In this document: piece after piece, positions 31,236-41,235 of the stretch
Layout of the letters: every line of letters starts with the position of its first letter
Numbering within the stretch: the stretch's first letter is position 1
NCBI RefSeq assembly: GCF_963677155.1
Contig: NZ_OY781884.1
Span: forward strand, 1,544,501-1,608,500
Length of the DNA: 64,000 nucleotides
From: an uncultured Draconibacterium sp.
GTDB lineage: Bacteria; Bacteroidota; Bacteroidia; Bacteroidales; Prolixibacteraceae
Direction of reading: 5' to 3'
Notes under the pieces: generated by a model
Told to the model about the DNA's origin: nothing
What the model saw: only the letters and a program-made list of their open reading frames with translations
Databases searched by the model: none
Translations under genes and position numbers: made by a program

Positions 31236-31940
31236 ATGCAAAACGAATTGTTATGGCTGGCCATGCTGCTGGCAAATTTTCTGCTTATCATTTTAGCCTA
31301 CCGTTTATTCGGGAAATGGGGTCTTGTTATGTGGATTCCCATCTCGGTAATTGTTGCCAACATACAGGTAATACAAACCGTTGAACTGTTTGGTCTGGTG
31401 GCCACACTTGGTAATATTGTTTATGCTACTTCGTTTTTAGTAACCGATATTTTGTCGGAGAACTACGGCAAAGAGGAAGCTAAGAAAGCCGTGTGGATTG
31501 GCTTCTTCAGCCTCATCTCCATGACTTTCCTGATGAACCTGGCACTCAAATTCCTACCATTAGAAGGCGACGAATTTGCCGGCATAACCCACGAAGCTAC
31601 CAGCACTATTTTCAGTCTGATGCCTAGAATTGCTGCAGCCAGTTTAGCAGCTTATCTGTTATCACAGCGCCACGATGTTTGGGCCTATCATTTCTGGAAA
31701 AAGCGTTTTTCGAAAGACCATCAGATCTGGCTGCGCAATAACCTTAGTACTATGGTTTCGCAACTGATCGACAGTGTTGTTTTTGTTGCCATTGCCTTTT
31801 GGGGCGTTTACGAATGGCCGGTCCTCATTGAAATTTTTCTAACTACCTATTTGTTAAAATGGGTTGTGGCCGCGGCCGATACGCCATTTGTTTACTGGGG
31901 AAAGAAAATTTACAAACGCAACCGTTTTTGGATGGAATAG
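31236..31940 (+). CDS. yhhQ: Queuosine precursor transporter (VUT family, YhhQ)
   Basis: A 234-residue membrane protein with about six spans, of the VUT/YhhQ family (PF02592). The signature TSFLVTDILSENYGKEEAKKAVWIGF is at ~66-91, and the second half has YLLSQRHDVWAYHFWKKRF and NNLSTMVSQLIDSVVFVAIAFWGVY. It imports preQ0/preQ1 for tRNA queuosine modification. A probable preQ1 riboswitch and a clear promoter precede it, which supports the function independently. Its last ~99 codons are duplicated downstream at 33298-33597. Queuosine synthesis genes are not in the window. Confidence 0.92.
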   Translation: MQNELLWLAMLLANFLLIILAYRLFGKWGLVMWIPISVIVANIQVIQTVELFGLVATLGNIVYATSFLVTDILSENYGKEEAKKAVWIGFFSLISMTFLMNLALKFLPLEGDEFAGITHEATSTIFSLMPRIAAASLAAYLLSQRHDVWAYHFWKKRFSKDHQIWLRNNLSTMVSQLIDSVVFVAIAFWGVYEWPVLIEIFLTTYLLKWVVAAADTPFVYWGKKIYKRNRFWME

Positions 31941-31961
31941 AAAGACTAGAAGTGTGTGAGC
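31641..31961 (+). repeat. Left copy of the 321-bp yhhQ 3'-end duplication
   Basis: This stretch, the end of yhhQ plus ~20 bp beyond its stop codon, is repeated in the same orientation at 33298-33618, offset by 1657 bp. By eye six substitutions and no gaps separate the copies (~98% identity). Confidence 0.95.
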
Positions 31962-33282: not shown

Positions 33283-33297
33283 GTTATTGCCATTGCA

Positions 33298-33597
33298 AGT
33301 TTAGCAGCTTATCTGTTATCACAGCGCCACGATGTTTGGGCCTATCATTTCTGGAAAAAGCGTTTTTCAAAAAACCATCAGATCTGGCTGCGCAATAACC
33401 TTAGTACTATGATTTCGCAACTGATCGACAGTGTTGTTTTTGTTGCCATTGCCTTTTGGGGCGTTTACGAATGGCCGGTCCTCATTGAAATTTTTCTAAC
33501 TACCTATTTGTTAAAATGGGTTGTGGCCGCGGCCGATACGCCATTTGTTTACTGGGCAAAGAAAATTTACAAACGCAACCGTTTTTGGATGGAGTAG
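33298..33597 (+). pseudogene. yhhQ: 3'-terminal fragment of yhhQ
   Basis: In-frame codons for the last 99 residues of the transporter (from SLAAYLLSQRHDVW to the stop codon), with no start region, promoter or riboswitch. DNA identity to the intact gene is ~98%; changes include GCA for GGA in YWAKKIYKRN and GAG for GAA before the stop. The duplicated block runs on to 33618. A displaced gene end like this is what site-specific or homologous integration into a gene 3' end leaves behind. It is presumably not translated usefully. Confidence 0.93.
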
Positions 33598-33639
33598 AAA
33601 GATTAGAAGTGTGTGAGCCGAGTGTTAAGCCCGGCTTGG

Positions 33640-33735
33640 CGGAATTAATACTTTGTCTGCCCCTTCGTTTGCAACAAGGGAAAGTGGGCAAAGGGAGACT
33701 TATCAGACCACTCCCCCTGCCATGTACAATTTATT
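33640..33735 (-). repeat. Degenerate cassette spacer
   Basis: The part 33675-33733 (GGGAAAGTGGGCAAAGGG ... CCCCTGCCATGTACAATTT) matches the second half of the intact spacer at 39755-39873 with a short deletion. The first half is lost or diverged. It separates the yhhQ fragment from the first cassette. Confidence 0.6.
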
Positions 33736-33922
33736 ATAGCCGATGCTTTATTTTCAAATGTTCAAGTACTATTTTATTGCATTGAATCTAAAGGTTGAAA
33801 TTTAGCTATTGTTTGTTCGCTTTCTAGCATGAACGCTAACAGTTCCTATAAGGGAAGCGGCTACAACCTATAAATATGATACTTTACTGGCAATTTTTTA
33901 TACCTCGTGTAGTGTTGCGTAT

Positions 33923-34924
33923 TTATTCAGACAGCGTCAAAACAGTTCTTCCTTTTAATTTTCCTTTTAGCATTAATTCAATTTTTTGCGCTACATCCTC
34001 CAATTTAATTTCATTGCAAGTATCGGCTAATTGATTGGGCTTCCATTCTTCGGCTAACTTATTCCAAACTATTTTGCGGTATTTCATTGGATAGTTTTGA
34101 GAATCTATTCCAATAAGTGTAACACCTCTCAAGATGAATGGAAAAACTGTCAAATCAAGTTTTGGAGATGCAACGTTTCCACAACAAGTAACAACACCTA
34201 TTGAATTAGTCGATTTAATTATATTTTCAAGTATTACACCTCCAACAGTATCAATAGCGCCAGCAAACAACGGTTTTAACAAAGGCTTTTTAGCAAAATC
34301 TTCAATTTCGCTACGTAATAGCACTTCCTCAGCTCCAAGATGAATTAAGTAGTCTCGTTCTGTTTCCTTGCCTGTTATTGCAACCACTGAATAACCGAGT
34401 TTACTCAATATAGAGACACTCAATGCTCCAACTCCTCCAGTTGCACCCGAAACCGCAATCTTTCCATCCTCTGGTTTTATCAATTCCGTGAGTCTCAAAA
34501 CAGACATTCCAGCAGTTAATCCGGCAGTACCATATATCATTGCCTCTTTCATAGTCATTTTTTCAGGCAATCTTACAACCCATTCCGCTGGAACCTGAAT
34601 ATATTCAGCAAATCCACCGTCGGTATTCATACCTAAATCATAACTTGTTACAATTACTTCTTCTCCAATAGTAAATAAATCACTGTTCGATTTTTCGATT
34701 GTTCCAACTGCATCAATTCCAGGTATATGCGGATAATTCCTTGTTACTCCTTTATTCCCCGAAGCCGATAATGCATCTTTATAATTCAATGAGCTGTAGT
34801 GTACTTTTACTCTTACCTCGTTGTTATTTAATGTACCAAATTCCATTTCTTTGATTGAGCCTTGAAAATTACCATCGATCTCTTCAATTCGAAATGCTTT
34901 AAATGTTGAACTATTTTGTACCAT
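33923..34924 (-). CDS. YhdH/AcuI-type zinc-free quinone oxidoreductase
   Basis: A 333-residue medium-chain dehydrogenase/reductase from the ATG at 34924 (MVQNSSTFKAF); an ATG 33 nt upstream is less likely. The NADP-binding loop is SGATGGVGALSVSILSKLGY, preceded by MIYGTAGLTAGMSV, both typical of YhdH/YhfP (acrylyl-CoA reductase group). The catalytic-zinc cysteines of alcohol dehydrogenases are missing. It would reduce an enone or acrylyl-CoA with NADPH. It diverges from an HxlR regulator gene, the classic arrangement for quinone or electrophile detoxification. The stop codon lies within the putative cassette end. Confidence 0.88.
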   Translation of the reverse strand: MVQNSSTFKAFRIEEIDGNFQGSIKEMEFGTLNNNEVRVKVHYSSLNYKDALSASGNKGVTRNYPHIPGIDAVGTIEKSNSDLFTIGEEVIVTSYDLGMNTDGGFAEYIQVPAEWVVRLPEKMTMKEAMIYGTAGLTAGMSVLRLTELIKPEDGKIAVSGATGGVGALSVSILSKLGYSVVAITGKETERDYLIHLGAEEVLLRSEIEDFAKKPLLKPLFAGAIDTVGGVILENIIKSTNSIGVVTCCGNVASPKLDLTVFPFILRGVTLIGIDSQNYPMKYRKIVWNKLAEEWKPNQLADTCNEIKLEDVAQKIELMLKGKLKGRTVLTLSE

Positions 34925-34977
34925 CTTTTGTCTTTTAATTTTACTTATTTTGTACAAATATCAGGATAAACATTTTA

Positions 34978-35003
34978 CCAACCAAGAACTTACCTTTGGT
35001 TGG
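34978..35003. promoter_or_regulatory. Candidate HxlR operator
   Basis: A perfect inverted repeat CCAACCAA (34978-34985) / TTGGTTGG (34996-35003) with a 10-nt spacer lies midway between the divergent oxidoreductase and HxlR starts. Size and position fit a dimeric winged-helix repressor; the protein-site match is inferred. Confidence 0.6.
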
Positions 35004-35059
35004 GATACGAACATTTATTTCTGTTTTTAGTATTTTAAAGACGTTGAGGGAAGAAAAAA

Positions 35060-35386
35060 ATGAAAAAAAGTTATTGTCCGATTGATACATTTATAAATGT
35101 TGTGAAAGGAAAACGAAAAGGAACGATCATTTTACACCTTTTTCAAGGAGATAAAAGATATAATGAATTGGTTAAATTATTAACTGATATTAGTGAACGA
35201 ATGCTGACCAAACAACTAAAAGAATTAGAAGCAGATGGATTAATCAATCGAACCGTTTTCCCGGAAGTTCCTCCACGCGTTGAATACAGCTTAACTGAAC
35301 TTGGTAAAGAAATTCATCCTGTCCTTAAAGGAATGTATAAAGGAGGACTCCTTTTTGAAAAGTCTATTGATGAATTGCATAACTAA
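35060..35386 (+). CDS. HxlR-family winged-helix transcriptional regulator
   Basis: A 108-residue protein, the usual HxlR length. The typical N-terminal CPIDTFINVVKGKRKGTIILHLFQGDKRYNELVKLL, recognition region DISERMLTKQLKELEADGLINRTVFPEVPPRVEYSLTELGKEI and dimer helix are present. Cys6 lies at the position used for redox or electrophile sensing in relatives such as HypR and QorR. It probably represses the divergent oxidoreductase gene through the inverted repeat between them. It is the only + strand gene in the cassette region. Confidence 0.92.
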   Translation: MKKSYCPIDTFINVVKGKRKGTIILHLFQGDKRYNELVKLLTDISERMLTKQLKELEADGLINRTVFPEVPPRVEYSLTELGKEIHPVLKGMYKGGLLFEKSIDELHN

Positions 35387-35495
35387 TTATTTACATGTTA
35401 TACTTTGGCTGTTAAGTATCCCAAATCCAACACAACGTGTTTGTGTATAAAATTAGAGCCAAGCCATTAATTTCATACTTTGCTGTGTAGTTTAT

Positions 35496-36503
35496 TTACT
35501 CAAAATTAGTATTTGCATAATCATTAAAACGCTCAAATTCCTGTGGGAAAGTATTGTTGACAAATTCATATTCCCAAAGCTCCATATATCTAATACCTAT
35601 TATATGTGCTTGCTCAAAAATAGTTGTGTAGTCGTTATTTTCAAATCTTGAAGTTTGGTCAGACCTCCCGATTGCCTGTGAATAAATATCTCCAGGGAAA
35701 TCAATTAAAGCATTTACTAAATTAGGCTGATAAATATTTTTCCCGGAAATCCACCACATTGCAGCGCCTACTCTATGATTTAAAGAAGGCTCATTCCATA
35801 AGTCTGTCATTATTCTGTTAGGAACTGAGGTATCTTCCATTATGTCGTGGACTTCAACAGCTATTGCCTTTTTTGTAAAAGCATTTGCAAATATCCGGGC
35901 TGTTTCTTTTACACCATTAACCCAATTATCTGCAGTTAGTCCGGCATCTAAAAGCTCATCTGTTGTAACACCATTAAAATGACCTTCTATACCATTTGCA
36001 GTCATTTGTGGAACATATACTAAAACCAAATCTTCGTCTTCATTATATTCATCAGAAAGTGCTTCCGCAAGTAGTGTTAGTCTTTCATTAACTCTAGTGT
36101 CCCAAATTTTAGGGATTCGTTTTACTGTATTATTGATTCCATTTATTTCAAAATAATCAGCGCCAATAGATTCTGTCAACCATAAAGGACTATCACCACC
36201 AGCCAGAATACCAAGACTCCACTTTAAATTTCGCTCTTTAATAACTTCACGAAATTGCTCTATGCCTGAAAAGTCATAAATCCCTTTATTTGGTTCTATT
36301 TCACTCCATTTTACTCGAATTAACGAACCATTAACTTGATCATTATCTAAAGCAGTTTCGTTTCCAAAAGAACTAGTGTAAAGTCCTTTAGGCTTTGTGA
36401 TATCAGCAGTATTATTTGAATTTTCAGGAATAGAATTATTATCATCTGAATTACAAGAAAATAAAAATAATATTATAAGAAAAGTTAAGTTGTATTTACA
36501 CAT
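35496..36503 (-). CDS. Lipoprotein with GH42-like TIM-barrel features
   Basis: A 335-residue lipoprotein (lipobox FLFSC, Cys17) with a Ser/Asn/Asp-rich linker to ~35. The body reads like a retaining TIM-barrel hydrolase: VKWSEIEPNKGIYDFSGIEQFREVIKERNLKWSLGILAG (barrel start as in GH5/GH42), WDTRVNERLTLLAEALSDEY, LVLVYVPQMTANGIEGHF, and a late MELWEYEFVNN. Candidate acids are the Glu in NGIEGHF and in MELWEYEF. No family could be named with confidence. It is in the cassette array and AT-rich compared with the flanking chromosome. Confidence 0.7.
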   Translation of the reverse strand: MCKYNLTFLIILFLFSCNSDDNNSIPENSNNTADITKPKGLYTSSFGNETALDNDQVNGSLIRVKWSEIEPNKGIYDFSGIEQFREVIKERNLKWSLGILAGGDSPLWLTESIGADYFEINGINNTVKRIPKIWDTRVNERLTLLAEALSDEYNEDEDLVLVYVPQMTANGIEGHFNGVTTDELLDAGLTADNWVNGVKETARIFANAFTKKAIAVEVHDIMEDTSVPNRIMTDLWNEPSLNHRVGAAMWWISGKNIYQPNLVNALIDFPGDIYSQAIGRSDQTSRFENNDYTTIFEQAHIIGIRYMELWEYEFVNNTFPQEFERFNDYANTNFE

Positions 36504-36584
36504 CCTTCGTGTTTAAATTAGTTGTCTAAATTTTAGAGTTCAAAAACAACTTAAGGTTTAATCAGCATTACATACCACGGAAAA

Positions 36585-36680
36585 TTATAAATTGTCGTTG
36601 CGGATTGCGGGTGATTTCCTGTCGTGCCACAATGTTGTTGTCAGCCCGAAAACTACAATGCAATTTACAAGGTGGTAGTG
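36585..36680 (-). repeat. Diverged cassette spacer
   Basis: ATTGTCGTTGCGGATTGCGG (36591-36610) resembles the start of the conserved spacers (TTGTCGTGGCGGATTTCGAAG), and the end ATGCAATTTACAAGG resembles their ...ATATTACAATTT end. The middle has drifted. It lies between the TIM-barrel lipoprotein gene and the GNAT gene. Confidence 0.4.
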
Positions 36681-36734
36681 GTAGTGTTTATTTGTTCTGC
36701 ATTTTATTCCGTTTGTAATACATTCATACTGTTC

Positions 36735-37181
36735 TTACAAATCCTTTTTAAGATAAATCATATCGATAAGTTGAATGTCGCCCTCGAAAATAGGGTGGTC
36801 GTAATTCTCTGTGAAAAAATTCTTTACCCGATGTGATTTCTCAAACCCACAACTTTCATAAAATGACAAGATTGTTGGTGTTTCGCCAGTTCCGACAAGC
36901 ATTGTTTTGTAATCGTTTTTGTAGAAATCAGAAATGAAATCTATCAGTGCTCTAGCGTACCCTTTACCTTGATATTTCTCGTATGTCGCTATGTTTTTCA
37001 ATTCGCAGGTTTCGTTATCTATCGGAACAACAACGCAAACACTTTTCAAATCATCGTCATATAAAACAAACAAATCTCCACCAGAAAGATACTTGTCAAT
37101 CATATTTTCCTGTTCGTCTGCCAGCAACAATAAATCAAGGAACTGCTTCTTATTTTCGACAATCTTTTTTATTGTCACCAT
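36735..37181 (-). CDS. GNAT-family N-acetyltransferase
   Basis: A 148-residue acetyltransferase. The acetyl-CoA pyrophosphate loop is [11 protein letters not shown] (Q71-GKGYA-R77), followed by the long helix [23 protein letters not shown] and the terminal [27 protein letters not shown]. This subgroup is widespread among small mobile genes; its substrate is unknown. It sits between two spacer elements of the cassette array, reading in the same direction as its neighbours. Codon use is AT-rich. Confidence 0.88.
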
Positions 37182-37245
37182 ATCTCTCTTTTTATTCTGT
37201 CAAATTTCATTTTTTGTCGCAAGGGGCTGATTACATTCCGTTAAC

Positions 37246-37361
37246 GGTTGGTACTTGTTGCGGAGCGGATTTCGAAGAGCGTTCATGTCTGGTAGAACGG
37301 AACGATGATGCGAGAGCCGCAGTTACGAACCGCACCAACCCCGCATTGAAATATGTTCTTT
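37246..37361 (-). repeat. Conserved cassette spacer, copy 1 (116 bp)
   Basis: Begins GGTTGGTACTTGTTGCGGAG and ends ...GCATTGAAATATGTTCTTT just before a GTT. It contains GCGGATTTCGAAGAGCGTTC at 37265-37284, identical to 20 bp of the copy at 38867. The end of the radical SAM reading frame lies inside it. Confidence 0.8.
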
Positions 37362-38426
37362 GTTCCCACACGTTGTTTTTTCTATTTTCTCATTATGGCA
37401 AACTAACACATTTTCCTTATTTCCATGCCAGTTATGAAATCCATTTCCCTGACAATCTTTAAAATCTTTGCACGATTCACATTGACCAATTTTTGTCCAT
37501 TCTCTGTTTCGAAAGGGTTGAAATTTGTTTTCCCAAACCTCATAAAGATTATCCGTGTAAATGTTTCCTTGTGAAAAGCTTCGATCGATATTTGGGCAAG
37601 CAGAAATCGAACCGTCTATAAGAATCGAACCAATATTAATCCCTGCTCTACAAAAAAAGTACGAATCCCTTACCAATGGTTCATATTTACCTACATACCC
37701 CTCGCAACTAAATTTAACATCAATCTCTTTGGATTTTCGACATGCTGCTATAAAATCCATTAATTGAACAAATTGATTGTCAGTTAACAACAAATCTGGA
37801 TTATGAACGGCTCTCCCGATAGGAATAATTGTAAATAATCTCCATCCCTTGACATTTTTCGAAATTAACAATTCTCTTATTTGTTCAAGTTCATTGATAT
37901 TCCGTTGATTTACACAAGTTACAATATCGAAGTTGATACGATTGGAAGATGATGCTAATTCAATTGCATTTATTACTTTATCGAAACTCTTTTCATTATT
38001 TCTCAACCAATTGTGAGATTTCTTGAATCCGTCTAAACTAATTGTCAATGCACCTATTCCTGCATTTAGTAATGAAATATGTCTTTGTTTATCGTATAAA
38101 TGTCCGTTTGAAACTATCGACCATTTAAAACCTCGTTTTCGCAGTTCTTTTCCACAAAGCTCTAAATCCTTTCGTAAAAGAGGTTCTCCGCCCGTAAATA
38201 CAACCGTAAAATTTTTTGGTTTATTCTTTATTGTGTCAATTGCTTTTAAAAAATCAGCAGCAGGCATGTCTCGATGCAAGCTATCTTTTGAGCAATCACT
38301 TCCACAATGCAGGCAATTTAAATTACATCGTGTAGTACACTCCCAAAACAAATAATTCAGTTCGTGCCGTTTTGTTTCTGAATCTTTAAATTTTCGGAAA
38401 CTGTATTTTTTTATTGATGATAGCAT
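37323..38426 (-). CDS. Radical SAM/SPASM enzyme of the rSAM/lipoprotein system
   Basis: A 367-residue radical SAM protein. The 4Fe-4S motif CNLNCLHC (Cys34, Cys38, Cys41) is followed by FTGGEPLLRKDLELCG and a C-terminal SPASM-type cysteine set: FCRAGINIGSILIDGSISACPNI, then CESCKDFKDC and VLVCHNE. It starts right at the stop codon of a small lipoprotein gene. This pair matches what I recall as the TIGR04133/TIGR04134 rSAM/lipoprotein system, in which the enzyme is presumed to modify the lipoprotein; the chemistry is not known. The last ~14 residues are encoded by the cassette spacer, so the C-terminus may be a product of cassette joining. Confidence 0.88.
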   Translation of the reverse strand: MLSSIKKYSFRKFKDSETKRHELNYLFWECTTRCNLNCLHCGSDCSKDSLHRDMPAADFLKAIDTIKNKPKNFTVVFTGGEPLLRKDLELCGKELRKRGFKWSIVSNGHLYDKQRHISLLNAGIGALTISLDGFKKSHNWLRNNEKSFDKVINAIELASSSNRINFDIVTCVNQRNINELEQIRELLISKNVKGWRLFTIIPIGRAVHNPDLLLTDNQFVQLMDFIAACRKSKEIDVKFSCEGYVGKYEPLVRDSYFFCRAGINIGSILIDGSISACPNIDRSFSQGNIYTDNLYEVWENKFQPFRNREWTKIGQCESCKDFKDCQGNGFHNWHGNKENVLVCHNEKIEKTTCGNKEHISMRGWCGS

Positions 38427-38792
38427 TTATTTTTCTTCCAACACTATATCTAAATACACATTTTCACTCAAATCTGTCAATACTGTATCCTTATCAACAT
38501 ATAGTCCGTTTTGATTAGAATCAATATCTTGAAATTGAAGTTTTAACCCTTCAAGCATTTCTGTGTAAAACGAAAACTTACCATTTTCATCAGTCAGCTC
38601 ATATTGCATATTATCGGCAACTGAAACTTTAATTCCTTTAATTGGTAATCCTGATGTATTAGCTTTTACTTGTCCTTCAATTAATAAATCAAGTCCAAAA
38701 TCTTGAGGTGTTCCATAGCACGCCTGAAAAATAAACATAGCAGATGTCAAACTTAACCCTCCAACTATTTTTCTAATTACATTTCTTTTCAT
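38427..38792 (-). CDS. Radical-SAM-associated lipoprotein
   Basis: A 121-residue lipoprotein from the ATG at 38792 (MKRNVIRKIVGGLSLTSAMFIFQAC-YGTPQDFG). Longer starts would run into the adjacent spacer repeat and are rejected. After the lipid Cys comes YGTPQDF, which I recall as conserved in the partners of this radical SAM enzyme. The mature domain is a carboxypeptidase-regulatory-like beta-sandwich (EGQVKANTSGLPIKGIKVSV ... ELTDENGKFSFYTEM ... VYLDIVLEEK). Its stop codon abuts the radical SAM start, so they are translationally coupled. The site of modification, if any, is unknown. Confidence 0.85.
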   Translation of the reverse strand: MKRNVIRKIVGGLSLTSAMFIFQACYGTPQDFGLDLLIEGQVKANTSGLPIKGIKVSVADNMQYELTDENGKFSFYTEMLEGLKLQFQDIDSNQNGLYVDKDTVLTDLSENVYLDIVLEEK

Positions 38793-38866
38793 GTTAATCA
38801 TTTTCTTTATGACGGTTTTTAATATCACTAGGTTGCTTTTACAAAGAATGCTAACGACAGTCTGAC

Positions 38867-38985
38867 GGTTAGTACATGTTGTCGTGGCGGATTTCGAAGA
38901 GCGTTCCTGCCCGAAGAACGCGGAACTGCGAAACGAGAATCCGCAGTTGGCGTACCACTGCCCCCCGCCCTGCAATATGGACTTT
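38867..38985 (-). repeat. Conserved cassette spacer, copy 2 (119 bp)
   Basis: Begins GGTTAGTACATGTTGTCG and ends CTGCAATATGGACTTT, followed by GTT. Its ends are complementary: CATGTTGTCGTGGCGG against the reverse of CCGCCCTGCAATATGG, so the element can fold back. The internal GCGGATTTCGAAGAGCGTTC is at 38887-38906. Confidence 0.85.
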
Positions 38986-39754
38986 GTTGGCGGTAGTTAT
39001 TTTGGCATAAACCTATTTGGGTCTTCTTTCTCTTTACGTCTTTTTATACGTTCAGCCTCTTCTGCGGCTTGTTGTTTCAATTTTTCGTCCTCTTCTAATT
39101 TTTCTTCACGAATGGTCTTTGCCGATTTAAAATCTGAATTTATGTTAGATTTTATTTGCTTATTTTGGTATCCAAGATTTGTCCAAGCAGACACATTATC
39201 TTTCTTAATCTGAAGTACTCCGTATAATACAGCTATTCCAACTAATCCAAATAACGATTGCACAATACCTAATCCAATGCTCAAGTTTACTACCAAGGCA
39301 GCAATACTTGTGGCAAGAAATCCCCAAAATCCAATTTTCATCCATTTAAACAACAAAATTGAGAAAGTTACATTACCAACTCCAAAAATTGCTAAAAGAA
39401 TCAACATTGAATTTGAAATCCCTCCTGGGAAATTTTGAGCAATCATGTCTCCAGCAAATAGATATAAAATAGCTGTCAATGAATTAGCAATAATCATCAA
39501 TATTAACCATGCCGTTACACAACCATGTCGTTGTTTTGAATTACTTGTCAACTCGCTCAATTTTTCCATTTATCATATATTTTAAGTTCTACTCATTTGG
39601 CATTTCAGTTTCAAACTGTTATTTAATTGATTTAAGGTCTCTAATATTATATAGCCGATCCGTTATTAAACCTATTTCTTTAAGTGTTCTTTTTATTGAG
39701 TTTGTCAGAGTTAAATTTCAAACACTTGATTTTGTTTTTATAATTACCGCCAAC
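38986..39754 (-). mobile_element. Putative gene cassette with 15-bp inverted ends (membrane protein)
   Basis: Left end GTTGGCGGTAGTTAT (38986-39000) and right end ATAATTACCGCCAAC (39740-39754) are inverse complements at 14 of 15 positions. The 769-bp unit encloses one gene whose stop codon lies in the left repeat. Conserved 119-bp spacers abut both ends. Confidence 0.7.
38997..39569 (-). CDS. Small membrane protein with charged coiled tail
   Basis: A 190-residue protein with four predicted membrane spans (~17-38, ~47-68, ~72-95, ~98-117), then a charged, probably coiled-coil tail (REEKLEEDEKLKQQAAEEAERIKRRKEKEDP) ending NRFMPK. The opening RHGCVTAWLILMIIANSLTAILYLF is common to a group of small Bacteroidota membrane proteins, of unknown function. 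It is the only gene of its cassette; the TAA stop sits within the 15-bp terminal repeat. Confidence 0.8.
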   Translation of the reverse strand: MEKLSELTSNSKQRHGCVTAWLILMIIANSLTAILYLFAGDMIAQNFPGGISNSMLILLAIFGVGNVTFSILLFKWMKIGFWGFLATSIAALVVNLSIGLGIVQSLFGLVGIAVLYGVLQIKKDNVSAWTNLGYQNKQIKSNINSDFKSAKTIREEKLEEDEKLKQQAAEEAERIKRRKEKEDPNRFMPK

Positions 39755-39873
39755 GGTCACTTGTATGTGGTCGGGCGGGATTTCGAAGAGAAATCCTGTC
39801 AGACCCGCAGGAAAGTGGGCGAAAGGTCTGACTTGTCAGACCGCTGAAACCCCCGCCTGCCATATTACAATTT
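39755..39873 (-). repeat. Conserved cassette spacer, copy 3 (119 bp)
   Basis: Begins GGTCACTTGTATGTGG and ends CCATATTACAATTT before GTT. Outer arms ATGTGGTCGGGCGGG (39765-39779) and CCCGCCTGCCATAT (39852-39865) pair imperfectly, and an inner perfect palindrome GGTCTGAC-TT-GTCAGACC is present. GGATTTCGAAGAG lies at 39778-39790, offset 23 bp from the start against 21 and 22 in the other copies. Confidence 0.85.
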
Positions 39874-40596
39874 GTTACCAACCGTATTTAATTTCTTTTT
39901 TATCTCAATAGCTTTTTTATTCATTGTTTTCCATTCCCCTGTCTCAATAAATTCATCAATCAAAGGAAGATTTTTAGGTGTTATATCTGCAATTGCATTT
40001 AGAGTTTCATCAAATTTCGATAACAATTTCAATTCAGTAGGATTAAATATTTGTATAAAATCATCTGACGCTGGAAAATAATAATCTTCCCATTGACAGA
40101 ATAATTCATCAGAGACTTGCGCTATTGGAACGTTTCTTTGATACTCCAATTGGCTTTCTTTTGATGCCCACAAGTCAATCACTCCGAACACGTTATTTCT
40201 TGTCAAGTCGATGAATTCCTCCTCGCTTATACTTTTTCCTTTAGTTTCAGTTCCTTCAATAGGTTTATTGATTTTATTTCTCAACGGTCTTTTTTTTATT
40301 TTTACTCGATAGTAATAAATTGGTGCATACAATGCGTTGAAAAAGAAAAGAGGAAATATTGATTTTGAATACCTGTCATACTTAAACAGAAACCATAAGC
40401 AATACCCCCCAAAAAAGAAGACTATTAAATTTAAGGATGTCGCAACCATATTAAAGATTGTCCGGTCTTTGCTGAATAGAATTTTGTCTATTGTTTCAGG
40501 GAATATAATTGCAATAAAAGGCAGTAGAATTACTGAAATTAGGAATATCAGATTTATTAGAAATGAGACAAATACTATTTTATCGAGTAGTTTCAT
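39865..40596 (-). CDS. Hypothetical membrane protein
   Basis: A 243-residue protein with two N-terminal membrane spans (~8-32 and ~45-72), then a shorter hydrophobic stretch FPLFFFNALYAPIYYYRV, a basic linker and a soluble C-terminal half (~120-243) with DDFIQIFNPTELKLLSKFDETLNAIADITPKNL. No family was recognised. The final residues NTVGNKL are encoded by the cassette end and the stop codon is 9 bp inside the adjoining spacer, as is seen for integron cassette genes. Strongly AT-rich. Confidence 0.78.
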   Translation of the reverse strand: MKLLDKIVFVSFLINLIFLISVILLPFIAIIFPETIDKILFSKDRTIFNMVATSLNLIVFFFGGYCLWFLFKYDRYSKSIFPLFFFNALYAPIYYYRVKIKKRPLRNKINKPIEGTETKGKSISEEEFIDLTRNNVFGVIDLWASKESQLEYQRNVPIAQVSDELFCQWEDYYFPASDDFIQIFNPTELKLLSKFDETLNAIADITPKNLPLIDEFIETGEWKTMNKKAIEIKKKLNTVGNKL

Positions 40597-40623
40597 TTGG
40601 TCTTTTCAATATGGTTGGTAACT
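39874..40623 (-). mobile_element. Putative gene cassette with 15-bp inverted ends (hypothetical membrane protein)
   Basis: Left end GTTACCAACCGTATT (39874-39888) and right end AATATGGTTGGTAAC (40609-40623) are inverse complements at 14 of 15 positions. This 750-bp unit has different end sequences from its neighbour, so each cassette carries its own repeat pair, as in integron cassettes. Confidence 0.7.
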
Positions 40624-41235
40624 ATTGTCCATCATCATTGTCGTTATATCGTTAATAGCATAAAAAAATTGTCATTACCAAAAAACGGAGTGATAACAAT
40701 ACTTTTATGTTTGGTGCAATTTCAACGATTGATATTTCAGGCCGCGCATTCAACGGTTATGGTTTTTATTGAGGTTTAAAGTTAGCATAATAAGAAAATA
40801 AAACAATACAGATAAGTTTTCTGCAACGACGCGTATCTCACGCGGGGTTTATTACTTCTTTAGGCTATAGTTTAGCCACGCGACTGAATCACGGGATAGC
40901 GGGAGGACAGAACCGGGCTTTAGCCCTTAAGGCTTACTGCAGGCGGGTTCCCAAATAGCCACATTCACAAAATATTGTAACTGACTGATTTTTCGTCTTC
41001 TTCAGCTAACGAAGCTGGTTTCAAACGTGTTTTTTCTTGAGCACAGGACATAGTTGGAGGGACAAAACATTTCGTTTTAAAGGGCTATCATTCAGGTAAT
41101 AGTTTATTATTACCCCTCGGCTATTGGGAGCGACCAAAAAAAGCTACTCAACAGTCTTTGGAGAAACAAGCAAGAACTGTGGTAACTTTAGCGGAAAGTC
41201 CGGTTGCCGGCCAGCTAAAATCAGGTGATTGGTAA
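40624..41235. other. Gene-free right edge of the accessory island
   Basis: About 610 bp with no convincing gene. It holds the third, degenerate GCCGCGCGAA-type repeat (40873), a small inverted repeat GGGCTTTAGCCC at ~40917-40928, and a + strand frame open from 41041 to 41235 without a start codon (GGTKHFVLKGYHSGNSLLLP ... QLKSGDW), perhaps the remnant of a lost gene. That frame ends one base before the MFS gene stop codon. Confidence 0.5.
40873..40906. repeat. GCCGCGCGAA-type repeat, degenerate copy 3
   Basis: TAGCCACGCGACTGAATCACGGGATAGCGGGAGG aligns in part (start TAGCCACGCGA, end AGCGGG) with the copies at 31976 and 33251, but the hairpin arms are largely lost. It lies beyond the last cassette. 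Confidence 0.5.

Follow-up and report, generated by a model that had tools for sequence, protein, structure and literature searches.

The window, a 64,000-nt stretch of the 5.27-Mb genome of an uncultured Draconibacterium sp. (G000; other G numbers denote relatives, and L numbers denote integrase or recombinase loci), contains a short array of genes separated by hairpin-forming spacers. These spacers are very probably the recombination sites of a widespread and largely unrecognized integron-like gene-collecting system, apparently with a different kind of recombinase, which may account for the acquisition and shuffling of genes in many Bacteroidota. At a probability of about 0.88, we read the window array as an integrase-less satellite of an integron-type system, its cassettes being moved in trans by a tyrosine recombinase encoded at C1:1149812-1150948. 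A preliminary description of the window had likened the spacers to attC sites and the units between them to integron cassettes. That reading is backed in silico by copies of the sites across the genome and the class, covarying stems, cassette-specific complementary ends, the linkage of a tyrosine recombinase to an array, an attI-like block that runs to a GTT, and identical cassettes in differing contexts with exact junctions. It also needs amending: the candidate integrase lies ~430 kb from the window array and differs from canonical IntI, the array in the window starts with its own attI-like sequence, and the wider system overlaps the islands of recombinase-associated acquired interbacterial defence (rAID).

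The three spacers of the preliminary description are real and, followed to their AAC and GTT ends, span 37243-37364, 38864-38988 and 39752-39876 on the minus strand. Each contains GGATTTCGAAGAG, which has 14 matches in the genome, compared with none for the reversed control pattern. On the gene strand, a site reads AAC-(~119-nt hairpin)-GTT; a stop codon and variable bases precede the AAC, the hairpin closes with ACC, and the next cassette begins with the GTT and further variable bases. Of the three window sites, two end in GTT and one in GTC. A covariance model (R1) built from 32 sites, these three included, scores them in window order at 93.2, 115.1 and 119.4 bits (E 2.6e-19, 1.0e-24 and 9.1e-26; E-values are rough, and the three are training members). 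Two diverged copies had also been proposed. The one near 36585 is recovered at 36576-36676 (34.2 bits, E 1.1e-4) although it lies outside the training set, whereas the one near 33640 is represented by a weak nhmmer match at 33674-33735 (E 0.03) and is not confirmed.

The sites are not confined to this locus; the preliminary description had named such confinement as adverse to the cassette reading. R1 finds 92 of them in the genome at E≤0.01, many clustered in one orientation, in a scan that scored 150 of 768 candidates. A second, broader covariance model (R2) finds sites in at least 101 of 149 genomes of the class, counts that are minima because 23 candidates per genome were scored. For the fold, we used a model-fitted alignment (A4) of 41 model matches from this genus and other Bacteroidota, which replaced a plain MAFFT alignment of distant sites (A3) that misplaced the stems. 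The AAC-to-GTT length is 121-127 nt in 38 of the 41 rows, and the inner sequence is highly variable. In the outer stem, 89.1% of cells are paired (57.3% when shuffled), 152 cells are changed on both stem sides (51 when shuffled) and the covariation score is 0.739 (0.195 shuffled, ≤0.106 slid); none of 500 shuffles reached any of these three values, which lean towards the structure of the model because the alignment was fitted to it. That 13 of 13 stem pairs have changes on both sides is uninformative, because 102 of 500 shuffles attain the same.

The most specific signature lies at the ends of the cassettes. Cassettes were taken to run from a GTT to the following AAC in consecutive co-oriented sites; 165 sites from G000 and ten genomes of the same genus gave 99 cassettes of 150-3500 bp with both ends recognized, longer cassettes and those without a recognized end being dropped. 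In 65 of the 99, the six variable bases that follow the GTT and the six that precede the AAC of the same cassette are perfectly reverse-complementary, compared with 0.8% of mismatched start-end combinations. At least five of six bases pair in 72 of the 99, and the summed matches reach 478, against a mean of 217 and a maximum of 263 in 2000 permutations. Across a single linear site, where the start is that of the following cassette, none of 59 combinations is perfect. The 5′ box of a site therefore pairs with the start of the cassette that the site belongs to, as it should if the hairpin becomes complete again in a circular cassette. The spacer ends do pair, as the preliminary description had noticed, but the key pairing spans the gene and joins the start of each cassette to its end. 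The sites are foldable and attC-like, with complementary outer boxes that lie at opposite ends of a cassette. The absence of GTTRRRY cores, also noticed there, is nearly right: seven of the 99 cassette starts fit this classical consensus.

The median length of the 72 well-paired cassettes is 0.9 kb, sites excluded, and in 68 of them the longest open reading frame is co-directional with the array. In modelled circle junctions with at least five of six paired bases, the strand opposite to the gene strand folds better in 71 of 72, with a mean difference of 4.2 kcal/mol in a comparison without a shuffled control. At position 11, 87 of the 99 cassettes have A at the start and C at the end, which is a mismatch on the gene strand and a G·T pair on the other. 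De novo detection of cassette chains from exact end pairing and the inner stem in 80 integrase loci was insensitive and was discarded; its opposite-strand control was not independent because the pattern is palindromic.

The preliminary description had seen no integrase, which holds within the window, where tblastn gave two chance-level matches (E 3.8 and 5.3). Genome-wide, there is a candidate: the C1:1149812-1150948 gene encodes a 378-aa tyrosine recombinase and is immediately followed by a co-directional array, in which the first sites begin at 1151761 and 1152550. Full-length homologues occur in ten of 12 other genomes of the genus, with downstream arrays in several. In a scan of GTDB contigs, from which the best 80 of 574 related stretches were taken, the best named recombinase matches are on Bacteroidales and Marinilabiliaceae contigs; near full-length relatives are on Flavobacterium, Pontibacter, Algoriphagus, Pedobacter and Chitinophaga contigs, and the N-terminal part is missing from many of the others. 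Of 13 R1 matches in these loci, 12 lie downstream of the integrase on its strand (the exception, L145, has E 0.05), as do all ten R2 matches in integrase loci. Across the 149 class genomes, 76 have sites and integrase, 25 sites alone, 10 integrase alone and 38 neither, so that the integrase is in 86; co-occurrence has an odds ratio of 11.6 (Fisher p 3.7e-10, without kinship correction). Where a site and the integrase are within 20 kb on a contig, the site is downstream and co-directional in 18 of 23 genomes (by eye, among the rows listed).

Two side observations concern this recombinase and its surroundings. The integrase-proximal array carries, at C1:1154024-1158142, genes that by eye resemble a phospholipase-D-type pair plus one for a large protein, possibly a defence operon. 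A relative ~52% identical over residues 137-373 is on many Acinetobacter plasmids (among the matches listed, H10-H34) and is named TnpF in one uncultured-bacterium record.

Residues R230, K255, H320, R323, H346 and Y355, which we take to be the usual catalytic set of tyrosine recombinases, are invariant in 12 aligned integrases. So are W42 and W49, in an N-terminal stretch of ~95 residues for which we found no convincing family match; a possible likeness to the HARP domain had no counterpart among Pfam matches. Against the Vibrio cholerae integron integrase (2a3v, VchIntIA), the protein aligns in two stretches, between which 18 residues of the query (278-295) face 60 (183-242), leaving ~42 VchIntIA residues without a counterpart. 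We take this region to be the location of the I2 helix that is specific to IntI, and by eye none of the 12 aligned homologues has an insertion there. The integron integrase model TIGR02249 gives 191.5-222.2 bits for seven recombinases, all under its cut-off of 265, with the best stretch ending at profile position 179-181 of 315; it nevertheless outranks the XerC and XerD models in all seven. Four of the seven pass NF040815 ('site-specific tyrosine recombinase/integron integrase'), and the G000 recombinase does so narrowly (222.2 bits, cut-off 220). By score, the predicted proteins are near relatives of IntI without its insertion.

These results bear on the strongest alternative, that the genome simply carries a classical integron whose IntI is degenerate or overlooked and whose sites are ordinary attC. 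The overall logic of attI, hairpin sites and cassettes is alike, the profile ranking of TIGR02249 ahead of XerC and XerD and the four passes of NF040815 agree with it, and two papers list integrons as reported in Bacteroidota (PMC8618304, PMC9668308). We nonetheless consider this alternative improbable, given that all seven recombinases fall short of the TIGR02249 cut-off, with best stretches that stop little more than halfway through the profile, that the residues at the presumed place of I2 lack a counterpart and that GTTRRRY is so rare at cassette starts. In addition, IntegronFinder 2.0 names one complete integron in Bacteroidetes proper, that of Salinibacter ruber M1 (PMC9024848).

The head of the integrase-proximal array also resembles an insertion site. 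From the integrase stop codon to the first GTT there are 87-88 bp in four genomes, a block that is conserved between close species up to the GTT, where conservation drops: between G000 and G008, 52 of 60 bases match to the left of the GTT and 27 of 60 to the right. The block contains repeated TATAACAACA-type motifs, and its position immediately after the integrase gene marks it, in silico, as a putative attI. Allowing two mismatches, GATATAACRACAATGATGAT occurs 14 times in the genome (reversed control, 0); 12 copies are followed within 2.2 kb by a co-directional R1 site and two are not. One copy heads the window array at 40623. The leaders of remote arrays have ~30 to >190 bp in common, and one pair shares >800 bp. 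The genome thus looks like one integron with about ten satellite arrays. Dispersed attI-like copies that head arrays remote from the integrase lie on C1 at 74420, 101406, 152181, 220622, 532888, 2814699, 4256189, 4336102 and 5127922, their upstream leaders being partly common.

Evidence for movement comes from homologous cassette pairs, eight of 21 of which are 100% identical over the bases compared and stand in differing contexts. An 866-bp cassette (GTT to AAC; 836 bp compared) occupies four places in G009 with 100% identity over the compared bases. On the right, the copies border four different cassettes; on the left, in the three copies shown, they adjoin three different sites, always with the junction between C and GTT. 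One of the four copies sits in a longer stretch where a site was missed. An 834-bp cassette (804 bp compared) in two places of G009 and a 751-bp cassette (721 bp compared) in two places of G010 behave in the same way. By sequence comparison, single cassettes therefore appear to have been gained, lost or moved at exact junctions. Separately, a ~1.3-kb element with a 393-aa transposase (IS481-like by eye) lies ~14 nt in from the beginning of several cassettes belonging to two species, placed as if it targeted cassette starts; it was seen in L030 (C1:1152773-1153954), in array cassettes near C1:5130104 and 5137078, and on C3 of G009.

Ordinary homologous recombination between dispersed palindromic repeats, REP/MITE-like (repetitive extragenic palindrome or miniature inverted-repeat transposable element) and perhaps spread by a Y1 transposase, could also shuffle such units. 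The sites are conserved enough to sustain it, and the genome has five Y1 transposase matches. We regard this as very unlikely: the identical cassettes join exactly before the GTT even though the sites that precede them differ near that base, and cassette-specific complementary ends would not be expected. The nearest Y1 match is ~3 kb from any R1 site. Hardly credible is the proposal that the hairpins are transcription terminators or RNA elements, repeated for regulation and without mobility: the sites follow stop codons and are predicted to fold strongly, but end pairing across genes, the attI-like head, integrase linkage and identical cassettes in differing contexts are left unexplained, and no Rfam family reached its gathering score in the window. 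The hairpins may still have a side role in termination.

From the observations above, we infer that recombination occurs, that this recombinase is its agent, that the folded bottom strand is its substrate and that the satellites are served in trans. A cassette would comprise a single gene or a small number of genes and, after them, a ~125-nt site. On excision, the end of the circle (...NNNNNNAAC) would meet its start (GTTNNNNNN...) and, with the intervening hairpin, complete a single-stranded stem. The recombinase, acting in trans, would then cut between C and GTT and join the folded site to the attI-like site at the array head.

A broader synthesis seems to us to have slightly better than even odds. 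It holds that the arrays represent a phylum-wide, largely unrecognized integron lineage of Bacteroidota in which recombination is structure-guided without I2; that the N-terminal double-tryptophan domain may recognize the hairpin; that the outer box varies freely since self-complementarity alone is read; that one integrase serves many attI-headed satellites in trans; and that rAID islands are a specialized branch.

The window array illustrates these features individually, all its features and the genes of cassettes 1-4 being on the minus strand. It starts with an attI-like leader at 40623..40811, which ends ...GATATAACGACAATGATGATGGACAATA and then GTT, with the motif at 40631-40650. In an ungapped comparison, the 40 bases left of the GTT match the attI-like block of G000, G008 and G003 at 31, 32 and 32 positions, and that of G007 at just 16; over 139-196 bp, the leader aligns with those of five other G000 arrays at 66-72% identity. 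Cassette 1 (39755..40622) comprises one gene (39865-40596; 243 aa, no Pfam match) and its site (attC-like site 1, 39752..39876, the 119.4-bit R1 match); its start, GTTACCAACC, pairs at ten of ten positions with the bases preceding the site. Cassette 2 (38867..39754) likewise holds one gene (38997-39569; 190 aa, membrane-protein-like by eye, no Pfam match) and attC-like site 2 (38864..38988, 115.1 bits), which has the GTC core in place of GTT; its ends pair at 13 of 14 positions, the first ten consecutively. Cassette 3 (37246..38866), possibly fused or decayed, combines a weakly carboxypeptidase-regulatory-like gene and a radical SAM/SPASM gene (37323-38426), with Pfam matches on 38427-38792 and 37370-38426, and ends with attC-like site 3 (37243..37364, 93.2 bits). 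Cassette 4 (36579..37245) carries a GNAT acetyltransferase gene (36735-37181; Pfam PF13508, 2.5e-11) and the decayed attC-like site 4 (36576..36676), the diverged copy described above. The match at 33674..33735 is a possible remnant site, and no integrase remnant was found in the window array.

We compared the locus with four relatives (G002, G006, G003 and G004), fetched out of eight others that carry the flanking transporter gene. All four keep the flanking genes and lack the array: neither a site (nhmmer E≤1e-3) nor an attI-like motif lies between the flanks, which are ~1.0 kb apart in G006 and 9.3 kb apart in the window genome. Beside the array, the 3′ part (~31626-31944) of a VUT/YhhQ-like gene (31236-31940, named by eye) is duplicated at 33285-33601. 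The two copies are ~1.3 kb apart with two small genes between them, and both match one single place in all four relatives; the duplicated part is perhaps the scar of another integration event.

Several results weigh against the satellite reading and the assignment of this recombinase to it. Fewer than five of six bases pair in 27 of the 99 cassettes (missed sites, fusions or decay), and in the window itself the ends of cassette 3 are unpaired, with four of 14 matches when the start is read one base out of register and three of 14 in register by eye. The attI-like block is less conserved in the other five, more distant genome pairs, which match at 27 to 42 of 60 bases left of the GTT and 18 to 29 of 60 right of it, the lower values arising partly because the comparison is ungapped. 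A downstream R1 match is present in six of 80 integrase loci, and an R2 match in eight of 19 loci, none of which contributed to R2. The Fisher p for co-occurrence is optimistic because related genomes are not independent; at E≤1e-60, 25 of 101 site-bearing genomes have no integrase, and ten of 86 integrase genomes have no detected site. Of the 23 genomes with both within 20 kb, five are arranged otherwise (by eye, among the rows listed). Finally, the genome has 13 PF00589 matches, and other tyrosine recombinases could act instead.

If the proposed reading is right, the consequences reach beyond this locus. Integrons are seldom found in Bacteroidota; one genome here has 92 sites, and at least 101 of 149 class genomes have matches. 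IntegronFinder 2.0 requires the IntI-specific domain (PMC9668308), and it would therefore probably miss the system. Self-complementary ends would supply a simple rule for spotting cassettes in seemingly integron-free genomes. Should the recombinase work as proposed, structure-guided cassette capture would be possible without I2, and the origin of integrons would become testable through a comparison group. The same process is a possible mechanism for the collection of type VI secretion system (T6SS) immunity genes by rAID islands.

Among known systems, rAID of gut Bacteroidales is the closest. In the accessible part of its description, it comprises a tyrosine recombinase, co-oriented short genes and conserved intergenic motifs (PMC12247911), and the words integrase, hairpin, cassette and integron do not occur in that part. 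The predicted tyrosine recombinase is present here too, as are the co-oriented short genes with conserved intergenic motifs. rAID differs in being defined by orphan T6SS immunity cargo, for which no Pfam match was found in the eight window proteins scanned. A comparison is offered by the rAID-like array of a Parabacteroides distasonis plasmid (L255): its recombinase is 52.6% identical to that of G000 over residues 47-375, and its cargo includes Tdi1 and SMI1/KNR4 immunity-type genes, giving it the look of rAID. Its sites measure 39-43 nt (AAC to CC) and in seven of eight cases are followed by ATT, whereas those described here are ~125 nt with GTT. With hand-set boundaries, all seven L255 cassettes pair at eight of eight bases and none of 42 cross pairs matches all five compared bases, a description rather than a blind test because we could see the paired ends while placing the boundaries by eye; an automatic scan took inner TAAC motifs as site starts and found two of five cassettes fully paired over six bases. 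The nearest plasmid relatives include Parabacteroides, Bacteroides, Pontibacter, Rufibacter and Chryseobacterium (among the matches listed). In Saccharibacillus kuerlensis (Firmicutes), an array of shorter sites (L141, 11303-12670) lies downstream of a related recombinase matched from residue 106 on, and by eye its ends pair too (GTTATCTGAA.../...TTCAGATAAC); the pairing principle may thus reach beyond Bacteroidota.

With XerA, XerC and XerD, the recombinase has the catalytic fold family in common, and its NF040815 score places it just inside the XerA model; the linkage to cassette arrays and the extra ~95-residue N-terminal stretch set it apart. The system shares with classical integrons an integrase, an adjacent attI-like site with repeated motifs, co-directional cassettes, integrase-less arrays, folded sites with outer boxes split between cassette start and end, and a predicted opposite-strand folding bias. 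Unlike them, it has no I2 region, an extra N-terminal domain, a hypervariable outer box in place of GTTRRRY, an attI-like site 3′ of the integrase gene and several satellite arrays per genome headed by attI-like sites. One study describes I2 as not found in other proteins and as probably having enabled single-strand recombination, with its deletion abolishing IntI1 activity (PMC7790495), and a tyrosine recombinase survey describes the insertion as not fully conserved in the integron-like subgroup, yet essential for integron function (PMC8138268). The L255 array is rAID-like and obeys the end-pairing rule, and we therefore do not call the system categorically new. Searches of open-access literature, which leaves out most subscription journals, gave no description of a general cassette system of this kind. 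Its apparent novelty lies in the general cassette logic, the attI-like site, the spread through the phylum and the lack of I2.

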